Of a DNA stretch of 55,320 nucleotides, positions 36,540 to 42,941 are shown one piece after another. The DNA lies in assembly GCA_944380395.1 (NCBI GenBank), contig CALWHM010000010.1, positions 1 through 55,320 on the forward strand, given 5' to 3'. How positions within the stretch are numbered: position 1 is the first letter of the stretch; every line of letters begins with the position of its first letter. The stretch comes from an uncultured Clostridia bacterium (GTDB taxonomy: Bacteria > Bacillota > Clostridia > Christensenellales > UBA3700). A model generated the notes under the pieces. The model had not been told where the DNA came from, searched no databases, and saw only the letters and a program-made list of their open reading frames with translations. A program made the translations under genes and the position numbers.

Positions 36540-36613
36540 AGGCGCCGAGTGAAAATGCCGCATGATAAGCATTGCGTGTAGATGTGCAAAAGTTCATGCG
36601 GCATTTTGCGCCT
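36540..36613. repeat. Family-1 structured hairpin, copy a
   Basis: Outer arms AGGCGC/GCGCCT, a one-sided 6-nt bulge CGAGTG, and inner 14-bp arms that begin AAAATGCCG and close with GCATGA/TCATGC. The loop is about 28 nt. Confidence 0.85.
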
Positions 36614-37227
36614 ACGCTTTATGTGAAAACCCGGCACGCTCCGCTATGGTTTTCCCCTCGTTTTGCGGCAAGTTGTAAAATAATGCGCCTTGATATTTGC
36701 CGCAAAACTTCACCCCTTTCCGTCCTAACGGAAAAATCCGCACAGCGAATTTTATAGGTAACGCTCGCAAAAACGCGGTTTTGCTTCGCTTGTATTATAT
36801 AATGAGGTGTATGAAGTGAGCGTGCGTACACCTGATAGGTGTATAACAGGTGTATGAAGTAAGCGTGACGTACACCTGATAGGTGTATAACAGGTGTATG
36901 ATAGGTGTATAAACTATGAAAAATACCTTGTTAAACGCCGCAACTAACAGCACCGCAGAGAAGGCGTGTCAGACAAGGAAAAGCGTGGCGCTCCGTTAAT
37001 GATTATAAACACAAGCGAAGCAAAACCGCGCTTTTGCGAGCGTTACCTATAAAACTTGCCGTGCAAGTTTTCCGAATGAGTGATGCTAGCCGAACGAGTG
37101 AGGCGGAAAGAGATGAATTTTTGCGGTAAGAAAAAGCGCGTTTCCGCGCAACTTTCCGCAAAAAGAAGGGAGAACCGACCCTCAAGCAAACTTCGTTTGC
37201 GAATGGGTGGGTGCTCCCTTAAAGCGA
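36614..37227. repeat. Mosaic repeat A between secD and scfB
   Basis: Between the inverted hairpins a and e lie: a module at 36623-36792 that recurs at 39605-39776; tandem AGGTGTAT-type units (about 36800-36912); a truncated family-2 copy (about 36925-36990); and a segment at 37010-37220 related to 42665-42860 and, inverted, to parts of 39980-40180. No gene is supported in 36532-37227. Confidence 0.75.
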
Positions 37228-37301
37228 CACCGCAAAATGCCGTGAGAAATATTATTACGCACTATTTTTAGTTTATCTCACGGCATTTTCAATCGGCGGT
37301 G
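37228..37301. repeat. Family-1 structured hairpin, copy e, overlapping the scfB 3' end
   Basis: Outer arms CACCGC/GCGGTG, bulge CAATCG, and inner arms closing with GTGAGA/TCTCAC. In the scfB direction its first arm encodes the last codons (PPIENAVR) and the stop TAA lies at 37273-37275. Confidence 0.85.
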
Positions 37302-38655
37302 ATACTAGTGTGTAGGCGGCGATGAATAGAGCATTCTCCAACCTCTTCCTCATCATCGCGCAGGTTATGGGCGTTACGTTGTCCATTCCTCCGCCGAATT
37401 TGATGTTATTGGCAGCGCAGCCTCCGCTGCAATAGTATTTGGCAAAGCAATTTTCGCATTCTTTTTTGCGCGTGACTATATTTGTGGCAAAGTAGTCCTC
37501 TACGCCTTGAACGCCTTCCCCGCCCCATACGTCGCCCATAAGGTACTCTTCCTGCTCGCAAAATTGGTGGCAGGGATATATCTTGCCTTCGGGAGATACA
37601 GCCACATATTCGCAGCCGCTGCCGCACCCGGTAAGGCGCTTGGTCATACAGGGCGATGTTTCCAAGTCCACAAAGTAATGGAAGAAGGTGAACGGCTTGC
37701 CGGCGTTGTATCTGTCCAAATAATAGCGCGCAAGCTTGTCATACTCTTCAAAAATCACGGGCAGATCGCAATCCCTTATTTCTATGCCGGGAATATCGGT
37801 GACGACAGGCTCCACGGAGACGCTGTCAAAGCCCGCTTCCACCATGGCTTTAACATCGCCTGCAAAGTCCAAGTTGGCTTGAGTAAACGTGCCGCGCACG
37901 TAATAAGACTTTTTGCCGCGCAATTTCGCCATATAAAGCGCATTTTTTCTGATTACGTCGTAAACGTCCTTTCCGTTCGGCGTGGGGCGCATACGGTTGT
38001 GCACGTCCTTTCTGCCGTCCAGAGATAAGACGACGTTATACATATTTTCGTCCAGCCACTTAGCCTTTTCCTCATCCAAAAGCAGGCAGTTGGTCGTCAT
38101 TGTAAATGAGAAGGTCTTGCCCGAATCCTTCTCACGCGAACGGGCGTACTCCACTATCTGTTTGACCGCGTCGTAACATAAAAGCGGTTCTCCGCCGAAA
38201 AAGTCCACCTCCAAATTATGGCGCTTTCCGCTGCGGGATATCAGCCAATCTATGGCGGCTTTGCCCGTTTCCGCACTCATATGAGCGCGCGAAGTGGTGT
38301 GGTAAGTGCCCTCGTCCGCAAAGCAATACTTGCACCTCAAGTTGCAGTCGTAGCACACGTTAAGGCACATTGCTTTTATCTCGCCCGTACGCTTTTTCTC
38401 CGCATAAGTGGTGCAGGGCGTGTTCAAACAGCCTTCCGCCTCCAAGTTTTTCAGCTCGGAAACTATGCCGTCGTATTCTTCTTTGGGAACAGCACAAAGT
38501 TCGCCCTGCTCTTCTTTACTGAGCGGACGAACGTCGTATATCTTGTTTACAATCAGAAAAGCGACCCTGTCAACATTGTGCAGACTGCCGCTTTCCGCAT
38601 CCCAGACAAAGTAATGCTCTTTGCCGGAATAAGAAAATTTGAATGTGTGGACCAT
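37273..38655 (-). CDS. scfB: SCIFF peptide maturase (radical SAM, SPASM)
   Basis: Enzyme expected to install a thioether crosslink in the SCIFF peptide. The 460 residues contain an N-terminal peptide-recognition region, the radical-SAM motif CNLRCKYC (about 109-116) with FFGGEPLL, and a SPASM region with two auxiliary clusters (CGSGCEY, then CENCFAKYYCSGGC). It begins at an ATG sharing a base with the scfA stop (TAATG), so translation is coupled. The C-terminal eight or so residues are encoded inside a family-1 repeat, suggesting the original tail was replaced or extended. Confidence 0.96.
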   Translation of the reverse strand: MVHTFKFSYSGKEHYFVWDAESGSLHNVDRVAFLIVNKIYDVRPLSKEEQGELCAVPKEEYDGIVSELKNLEAEGCLNTPCTTYAEKKRTGEIKAMCLNVCYDCNLRCKYCFADEGTYHTTSRAHMSAETGKAAIDWLISRSGKRHNLEVDFFGGEPLLCYDAVKQIVEYARSREKDSGKTFSFTMTTNCLLLDEEKAKWLDENMYNVVLSLDGRKDVHNRMRPTPNGKDVYDVIRKNALYMAKLRGKKSYYVRGTFTQANLDFAGDVKAMVEAGFDSVSVEPVVTDIPGIEIRDCDLPVIFEEYDKLARYYLDRYNAGKPFTFFHYFVDLETSPCMTKRLTGCGSGCEYVAVSPEGKIYPCHQFCEQEEYLMGDVWGGEGVQGVEDYFATNIVTRKKECENCFAKYYCSGGCAANNIKFGGGMDNVTPITCAMMRKRLENALFIAAYTLVSPPIENAVR

Positions 38656-38825
38656 TAGATAAGAGGCTTGCGGATAACGTTCACCTTTTCACCGTTGTTC
38701 TTGCAGCTCTGATTGCCCACAGTGCAGCTGGTCTTGCAAGCGGATTGGCAGCTGGATTGGCACTCGCCGCAGCCTATCTTGCCCTCCTTGCGGATAGTCT
38801 TTTTAACAATGGAATTGATATGCAT
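38655..38825 (-). CDS. scfA: SCIFF precursor peptide (six cysteines in forty-five)
   Basis: Ribosomally made, post-translationally modified peptide of 56 residues, near-universal in Clostridia and of unknown role. The core CGECQSSCQSACKTSC matches the SCIFF signature with six Cys, followed by TVGNQSCKNN. A longer open frame extends upstream, but ATG 38825 has GGAGG 8 nt before it and gives the family's MHIN-type start. The sequence continues about a dozen residues past the last Cys (GEKVNVIRKPLI), longer than I expect for the family. It has its own promoter and overlaps scfB by one base. Confidence 0.96.
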   Translation of the reverse strand: MHINSIVKKTIRKEGKIGCGECQSSCQSACKTSCTVGNQSCKNNGEKVNVIRKPLI

Positions 38826-38854
38826 AACTTGCACCTCCGTTCTTAATTTATTAT

Positions 38855-38883
38855 ATTGTAATATATATCGCGTAAAAATGCAA
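38855..38883 (-). promoter_or_regulatory. Promoter of scfA-scfB
   Basis: TTGCAT (38878-38883), 17 bp, TACAAT (38855-38860), about 30 bp before the scfA ATG. Confidence 0.65.
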
Positions 38884-38914
38884 GTGATTTTTTCCATTGC
38901 CCTGCCGTATATGT

Positions 38915-42393: not shown

Positions 42394-42399
42394 ATAAGT

Positions 42400-42429
42400 A
42401 TAATATAGGAATTGCTTGCGGAATGTCAA
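42400..42429 (-). promoter_or_regulatory. Leaderless-type promoter of tgt
   Basis: TTGACA (42424-42429) with TATATT (42402-42407, spacer 16) or TATTAT (42400-42405, spacer 18). Either puts the transcript start within 0-2 nt of the ATG at 42393. Confidence 0.72.
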
Positions 42430-42444
42430 ATGTATCCGCAAGCA
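42413..42444. promoter_or_regulatory. Inverted repeat around the tgt -35 box (possible operator)
   Basis: Perfect 10-bp arms TGCTTGCGGA/TCCGCAAGCA (42413-42422 and 42435-42444) enclose the TTGACA box. There is no T run, so it is not a terminator. A repressor site is plausible. Confidence 0.5.
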
Positions 42445-42456
42445 TTTTAACCTTAG

Positions 42457-42577
42457 GCACCGCATATAAGGCGCGTGATACTTTGTCGAGACAATTTTTC
42501 CCTAAGTCACGTACGCCAAGTACGCTCCTGTCGTGAAAAACCGCCTCTCCTCGTCTGACACGCCTTCTATGCGGTGC
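42457..42577. repeat. Family-2 structured repeat, copy C
   Basis: Outer arms GCACCGCATA/TATGCGGTGC (42457-42466 with 42568-42577) are perfect, then AAGGCG-GTG/CACGCCTT with one bulged base, and inner arms CGTAC/GTACG. The orientation is opposite to copies B and D. Confidence 0.85.
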
Positions 42578-42866
42578 GTTTTGTTGCGGCTTTTAACAAG
42601 GTGGAAAATTTACAATAAAGCGCGGCGAAATCGCAATTTTGCCAAACGGGAGCGCGTGACGCTTCACCCATGATAATATAAGCGAAGCAAAACCGCGCTT
42701 TTGCGAGCGTAACCTATAAAACTTGCCGTGCAAGTTTTCCCGTAAGGGCGGAAAGGGTGAATTTTCGCGCAAATGAATAGCTTGCTCAAATATAACCTCT
42801 GCGCGAAAAGAAGGGAAAACCGAGCCTCAAGCGCGAGCGAATGGCTGGGTTTTCACTTAAAAACGT
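42578..42866. repeat. Mosaic repeat C between tgt and queA
   Basis: The segment 42665-42860 resembles 37010-37220 (AAGCGAAGCAAAACCGCGC..., CCTATAAAACTTGCCGTGC..., AGAAGGGAAAACCGAGCC...). No gene is supported in 42445-42928. Confidence 0.72.
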
Positions 42867-42941
42867 AAGCGCAAAATGCCGCGCGCAGATTTTGTACGCT
42901 TATTGAGTTGCTTTATCGCGCGGCATTTTCATTCGGCGCTT
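42867..42941. repeat. Family-1 structured hairpin, copy d, overlapping the queA stop
   Basis: Outer arms AAGCGC/GCGCTT, bulge CATTCG, inner arms AAAATGCCGCGCG/CGCGCGGCATTTT. In the queA direction it supplies the final codons (S-A-E) and the TGA at 42929-42931, and could act as a 3'-end hairpin. Confidence 0.85.

Follow-up and report, generated by a model that had tools for sequence, protein, structure and literature searches.

A covarying bulged hairpin is the end module of a chained, dispersed repeat in a genus of uncultured Clostridia

Introduction

What kind of element is a short hairpin that recurs five times within a few kilobases of a bacterial chromosome, and what keeps its two arms complementary while their letters change? 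This question is raised by contig CALWHM010000010.1 (assembly GCA_944380395.1) of an uncultured Clostridia bacterium, of which positions 1 to 55,320, the whole stretch of 55,320 nucleotides (nt) analysed, are called the window here. A preliminary description, made from the letters of the window, had reported five copies of a hairpin of about 75 nt between positions 36,540 and 42,941, with an invariant one-sided bulge and with stem bases that change in pairs, and had attributed this to selection on a folded RNA or single-stranded DNA. We found that this hairpin, which we call H1, is a real, well-supported covarying dispersed hairpin family, and that it forms the outer end of a longer chain of modules. 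The reading that we favour, with a probability of roughly 0.5, is that the H1 chain is a non-coding, mobile-type mosaic repeat, specific to its lineage, that works much like repetitive extragenic palindromic (REP) elements and bacterial interspersed mosaic elements (BIMEs).

Results

H1 is an oriented hairpin with a bulge of fixed place and length

The five copies lie exactly where the preliminary description had placed them. H1 copies are oriented, and the strand listed here is the one that carries the bulge on the 3′ arm.

36540..36613, minus strand: H1, stem allele GCATGA/TCATGC, bulge CGAGTG (read on the plus strand); −35 box of the secD promoter 8 nt beyond its outer edge
37228..37301, plus strand: H1, stem allele GTGAGA/TCTCAC, bulge CAATCG; runs into the 3′ end of the radical SAM frame (37273-38655, minus strand)
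39363..39434, minus strand: H1, stem allele GCAGGA/TCCTGC, bulge CGAATG/CATTCG; outer arms mutually unmatched (CACCGC with GCGCCT)
40184..40258, plus strand: H1, stem allele GTGCGA/TCGCAC, bulge CATTCG
42867..42941, plus strand: H1, stem allele GCGCG/CGCGC, bulge CATTCG; the queA frame (42929-43993, minus strand) has its TGA stop at the bulge edge

The promoter named for the first copy is a promoter-like TTGACT-17-TATAAT before secD at 36531-36503 (minus strand). All five copies were found to fold as hairpins, with RNA folding z-scores, in order of position, of −3.95, −4.27, −2.32, −4.17 and −2.62; among 200 shuffles of each, 0, 1, 6, 0 and 3 folded at least equally well. DNA folding of both strands gave the same shape for two of them (40184 and 42867). 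In the window H1 measures 72-75 nt between its outer arms, the covariance model described below has 84 positions, and the loop is about 30 nt long. The outer arms, listed earlier in matching pairs, do not match in the 39363 copy.

The bulge had been called invariant. It is one-sided, and its place and its length of six bases are constant, but its sequence varies around the consensus CANYCG. Among 77 distinct copies (the 80 described below minus three identical rows) we counted CATTCG 36 times, CAACCG 13 times, CACTCG 12 times, CAATCG 10 times and other sequences six times. The foot triplet of the same 77 copies is GCG in 39, ACG in 31, TCG in four and another triplet in three, and the letters that follow it are paired and variable.

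Stem pairing is kept while the letters change

In an alignment of 45 copies, 95.6% of the stem cells hold standard pairs, compared to 84.6% after shuffling and at most 47% when one arm was slid along the other, and both sides have changed at 12 of the 21 stem pairs. The stem alleles include GTGCCGTGCG, GTGTTTTGCG, GTGTTTTGTG, GTGCTTTGCG, GTCCTGCGCG, ATGCCGCAGG, ATGCCGCATG, ATGCCGTGAG and ATGCCGCGCG, and the matching arm is mostly present. To allow for relatedness, double changes between standard pairs were counted by parsimony on trees, counts that are inflated by recombination among copies. The tree made from all columns gave 35 double changes, against a mean of 2.2 and a maximum of 15 in 200 re-pairings and at most 2 with slid arms; the tree made from unpaired columns gave 83 (re-pairings: mean 8.9, maximum 34; slid arms: at most 13). 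The paired stem changes first seen in the window thus hold up in the larger alignment, beyond these controls.

The two strands do not behave alike. On one strand the top copies reach about 95-100 bits, on the opposite one about 30 bits. When the stems were read with the bulge on the 3′ arm and the outermost and innermost pairs were excluded, changes from Watson-Crick to G-T pairs outnumbered those to A-C (19 versus 6, p 0.015). Because of this excess we read the strand bearing the bulge on its 3′ arm as the folded one; the counts suggest this, and a mutational bias could give the same excess.

H1 is dispersed through the genomes of one genus

An 18-nt pattern of the 3′ arm occurs 27 times with at most one mismatch in the 1.78 Mb genome of the window (G000, a draft of 66 contigs that is 88% complete), and never when read backwards; with two mismatches the counts are 29 and 3. 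A covariance model was built on 45 copies taken from five genomes; its E-values are rough. It gave 80 copies above 45 bits in five genomes of the same genus, by which we mean the grouping given by the analysis tool: 31 in G000, 32 in G002, 13 in G003, three in G001 and one in G005. Many copies therefore lie outside the window. The 80 come from stretches fetched for earlier hits; by construction they include 43 of the 45 or so copies used to build the model, and the others are new finds. Reverse-strand echoes and matches below 45 bits (L102, L110, those of G079 and others) are excluded. Alignments A1 and A2 omit L021_1046m and the window half copies at 11071 and 11124, and A2 also omits L035, L039 and L042.

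H1 was found in five of the seven genomes of the genus. Filters were stricter in the wider model runs, in which few candidates were scored for each genome, and weak relatives may escape them. In the family, six of 47 genomes matched, namely the five of the genus and, as the sole match among the other 40, G062 with a weak 32.6 bits. The order sample gave five of 200 genomes (four of the genus and G079, from another family), and the class sample one of 391, which was G000 itself. G079 carries a shortened H1 with nine matches, a CATYCG bulge, an AAAATT..AATTTT core and a different outer arm. The host group of H1 is one genus of uncultured Clostridia related to Candidatus Alloclostridium and Candidatus Caccalectryoclostridium.

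Three observations stand beside this distribution. The weak match in G062 (L110, 1000-1078) has outer arms GACCGC/GCGGTC and a CAACCT bulge and is a possible distant relative. In G079, loci L111 and L112 hold a different chain of hairpin modules that ends in the short H1 and includes GGGAGTGG..CTCCC and GTGCA..TGCAC modules. A contig of a Neomarinimicrobiota metagenome-assembled genome (L159) has an exact match to the tail pattern, for which chance or contamination is possible.

H1 ends a chain of hairpin modules

The preliminary description had treated the hairpin of about 75 nt by itself. The hairpin is real, but it is the outer end module of a longer repeat, the chain M1-H2-H3-H4-(H5)-H1, whose full unit of about 280 nt is mostly hairpin-forming. 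The window holds the following chains (limits approximate).

36614..36800, minus strand: chain H4, H3, H2, M1 of the 36540 copy
36999..37227, plus strand: chain M1, H2, H3, H4 of the 37228 copy, in inverse orientation to the 36540 chain
39435..39800, minus strand: chain of the 39363 copy; a further, long hairpin H5 (ATGCCATA..TATGGCAT) stands between H4 and H1
40005..40183, plus strand: chain of the 40184 copy
42675..42866, plus strand: chain of the 42867 copy

A motif scan of the 420 nt upstream of each H1 found M1-H2-H3-H4 complete and in order for 32 of the 80 copies. Taken singly, H4 was present in 70, the second H3 arm in 68, H2 in 54, M1 in 53 and H5 in nine; M1 and H2 were swapped in four copies, no module was seen in four, and three flanks were shortened by contig ends. 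In 38 aligned chains both sides vary at three of five pairs in H2 and at five of ten in H3, with better pairing than in shuffles.

Two outward-facing H1 copies mark the edges of each of two window arrays, 36540-37301 and 39363-40258. Among all pairs within 2 kb, six face outward (12 of the 80 copies), one is direct and none faces inward, and the partners lie 0.7-1.5 kb apart; all remaining copies are solitary. The open reading frames (ORFs) of seven arrays were listed by length and judged by eye; L021, with 3.5 kb between its two H1 copies, has a frame of 256 amino acids. A further H1-bounded gap, in L020, contains an array of TGTCCAC..GTGGACA palindromes at about 2576-3109. The loops of H4 carry inserts beside CGAATG, the motif that the bulge shows on the opposite strand. 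Before a coaE-like gene, G002 has one such insert and G000 lacks it (as judged by eye), and the motif may thus be a favoured joining place.

Tail remnants are stacked at the bulge

Ten of the 80 copies carry one or two extra tails, 12 units in total, at a spacing of exactly 24 nt. These remnants have the form TCAWYCGGCG-NNN-AAGCGAAGCGC or near it; all start with TCAWYCGG or a one-letter variant, and the joint precedes the bulge by one base. The outer-arm letters of neighbouring units differ in 11 of 12 steps, which argues that the units descend from different H1 copies; simple 24-nt slippage was set aside as their source on the same ground. One stacked site (L019/L090) is common to G000 and G002. 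We read the remnants as serial replacement at the bulge. The window also holds two incomplete forms of H1.

11071..11195, minus strand: two H1 3′ halves (GCAAAACAC type) in direct repeat, without a 5′ half; the model matches 11116-11195 weakly (24.2 bits)
48869..48900, minus strand: H1 tail remnant (GGCGCCTAAGCGAAGCGC joined to TCAATCGGCG) with no full H1

An array of 44-nt tandem repeats (48335-48862) adjoins the latter.

H1 sites beside genes differ between species

The edges of H1 often adjoin stop codons, gene starts or promoters. Gene edges were set by a crude longest-ORF rule, with one G003 copy omitted for its short flank. In the gap between the radical SAM gene and secD, measured between matched protein ends, the genomes with H1 have 842 nt (G000) and 1341 nt (G002), whereas those without H1 at this place have 139 nt (G004), 183 nt (G001) and 174 nt (G003). 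Upstream of the coaE-like (dephospho-CoA kinase-like) gene, H1 is also present in G003, with a different but equally paired stem. In the gaps after queA in G003 and G005 (L123 and L120), another palindrome family, AAGCGAAAGAGAAAAAGG..CCTTTTCCTCTTTCGCTT, stands right past the stop codons; its inner stem is variable and seemingly changes in pairs.

Database and enzyme searches

H1 had been said to belong to no recognised family, and Rfam likewise gave no match at gathering score for the window and eight loci. A relaxed Rfam search of 36400-43000 returned one chance-level microRNA match (40054-40139, E 0.083), far below the gathering score. Phage and plasmid collections had no match to 36530-37310, no viral contig carried the H1 tail pattern, and in the open-licence literature we found no report of such repeats in this bacterial group. 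The transposase domain Y1_Tnp is present in four of 14 genomes (G002, G003, G010 and G079); six scanned loci around these relatives' Y1 genes showed no H1 up to E 1.

Elsewhere in the window, a 30-nt repeat (AAAATATTAGTAAGAAGT...) at 33093-33320 lies just upstream of a long minus-strand frame (30794-33037), and a gene for a BspA-type leucine-rich repeat protein with 69-nt repeats lies at 45752-47200.

Discussion

Three features point to a mobile repeat rather than a cellular RNA: the longer chain, the outward-facing pairs, and the remnants at the bulge. The chain probably spreads by a process at the DNA level that recognises a folded strand whose 3′ arm carries the bulge. A putative enzyme would read this strand and use the bulge as the joining point: a resident copy, opened at the CANYCG bulge, would receive the tail of an incoming copy, with the 24-nt remnants left behind. 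Pairing would be kept since copies that do not fold fail to propagate, helped by recombination among copies. A more far-reaching version, which we hold only tentatively and think doubtful, is that H1 represents a new kind of mobile repeat, in which the folded bulged strand would be both the end of the element and its docking site. The putative enzyme would open residents just before the bulge and join incoming tails to them, occupants would be replaced in the same gaps with 24-nt remnants stacked behind them, and compensatory changes would keep the copies foldable.

Several known systems resemble H1 in part. Like REP elements and BIMEs, as passages of PMC8266576 and PMC3733652 describe them, H1 is a dispersed intergenic hairpin with some inverted pairs, mosaic arrays and single-strand polarity, and a stem bulge is known from the E. 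coli elements. Those passages give REP elements as 20-40 bp palindromes ending in an unpaired GTAG or CGTC tag (PMC3733652), and E. coli TnpAREP as requiring the stem bulge and acting on one strand only (PMC8266576). In contrast, H1 is 75-84 nt long, with a loop of about 30 nt and a six-base one-sided bulge; it carries neither tag, its genome gave no Y1 transposase, it usually ends a chain of other modules, and its pair partners lie much farther apart than those of REP dimers. By size, tag and cognate Y1 transposase, H1 is thus not a REP element. Miniature inverted-repeat transposable elements (MITEs) are non-coding, with terminal inverted repeats and a target-site duplication. The H1 chains are also non-coding and present or absent between species, and the six paired arrays are the only ones with inverted terminal modules; in contrast to MITEs, no target duplication was seen in them, their ends fold on themselves, and no parent transposon was found. 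Nearest in habit are the hairpin elements of mitochondria, such as the repetitive hairpin-forming elements (RHE) of sponges, the double hairpin elements of fungi and the GC clusters of yeast, which a part of PMC2800124 describes as intergenic, non-coding, forming double or multiple hairpins, and showing few complementary substitutions between types. H1 differs from them in its bacterial chromosome, near-constant module order, fixed bulge and stacked remnants. At integron attC sites and IS200/IS605 ends, according to passages of PMC8266576, enzymes read a folded single strand via unpaired bases, as would be the case here, but for H1 no link to a Y1 enzyme was found.

A number of observations weigh against a mobile repeat that replaces itself at the bulge. 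Ten H1 sites were flagged as orthologous between G000 and G002 via blastn of their outer flanks, and many sites are therefore old; the occupants change, since the hairpins, stems included, differ at nine of them. At the tenth, upstream of the coaE-like gene, H1 is identical in both genomes (84/84) beside a 569-nt flank of 83.7% identity, which would also fit host function or gene conversion. No target-site duplication could be read in the radical SAM-secD gap, as the whole gap differs from those of G004, G001 and G003, and clean element ends could not be defined. The gap of G006, which has no H1, is not short, at 352 nt between matched parts with an incomplete secD match that starts from residue 30, and in G005 the two genes are on separate contigs. 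Sixty-eight of the 80 copies lie outside outward pairs within 2 kb. Pairing in H4 was not above that of shuffles (both-side changes at one of seven pairs) and the consensus fold did not resolve M1, both in the 38 chains. Three further copies have other joints (L093 at 26 nt, L106 at 16 nt and L042 at 64 nt), and the remnants possibly had a single origin and were then spread by recombination. Finally, no enzyme could be linked to H1 among Y1_Tnp, RVT_1 and Transposase_20, in a search that did not extend to other transposases, integrases and nucleases: Y1_Tnp was not found in G000, which is no proof of absence because the genome is 88% complete, RVT_1, the reverse transcriptase domain expected of a group II intron or retroelement relic, was found in two of eight genomes (G005 and G006) and not in G000, and Transposase_20 (IS110/IS1111) in none of eight.

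H1 could instead be a cis-acting RNA element, a two-way terminator or a stabiliser of 3′ ends, that was spread by recombination and is kept by selection on each transcript; we think this unlikely. By the crude ORF rule, 15 of 32 copies in G002 and 7 of 31 in G000 have their outer edge no more than 40 nt from the 3′ end of the best frame, yet the edge faces its 5′ end in 11 of 32 and 7 of 31, some right at promoters. The GC-rich stem is flanked by A/T tracts, and 36400-43100 contains 18 terminator-like sites compared to 9.6 (standard deviation 3.4) in shuffles, some of them in M1, H3 and H4; of H1 itself, however, the scan caught only two sub-stems (42869-42884 and 42907-42924, both from the 42867 copy), its loop limit of 8 excluding the whole of H1. 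The identical copy at the coaE-like gene would suit such a role, whereas the G-T excess lies on the strand opposite to the 3′ untranslated transcript, and two genomes of the same genus (G004 and G006) have no match to the H1 model.

The selection on a folded strand that was first proposed is only one of several possible causes of the maintained pairing, which itself stands; recombination and homogenisation are others. Quasi-palindrome correction, in which one arm templates the other, together with gene conversion might keep the arms complementary without any selection, an explanation that we regard as rather improbable. Homogenisation has left its sign in one prevailing stem type each in G002 and G003. 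In G001, copy L039, whose orthologous site in G000 is L099, forms a perfect palindrome, the bulge having been duplicated on the opposite arm. Arm copying should, however, erase the bulge, and L039 is the only one of the 80 copies with the bulge complement in its 5′ arm; the remnants with their common joint would also be left unexplained. It is highly improbable that H1 is a true REP system with a REP-associated tyrosine transposase (RAYT, together a REPtron) whose cognate Y1 enzyme went unrecognised: the bulged hairpins, the inverted pairs, the intergenic places and the tens of copies would suit it, as would the bulge and strand requirements of TnpAREP, but the Y1 searches and the lack of either tag speak against it. 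An artefact of assembly or binning has a vanishingly small chance; the genome is a fragmented draft, but the same repeats stand at orthologous sites beside conserved genes in separately assembled relatives.

The best-understood palindromic repeats of bacteria are tied to one enzyme family, that of TnpAREP. Here a longer, chained version is found in a group of uncultured Clostridia: its covariation is strong enough to demonstrate that the fold is preserved, and its remnants are a record that might tell how copies become joined. An enzyme, if one is found, could represent a new system for processing single-stranded DNA; if there is none, H1 would be a clear test case for compensatory changes in DNA without an RNA function.

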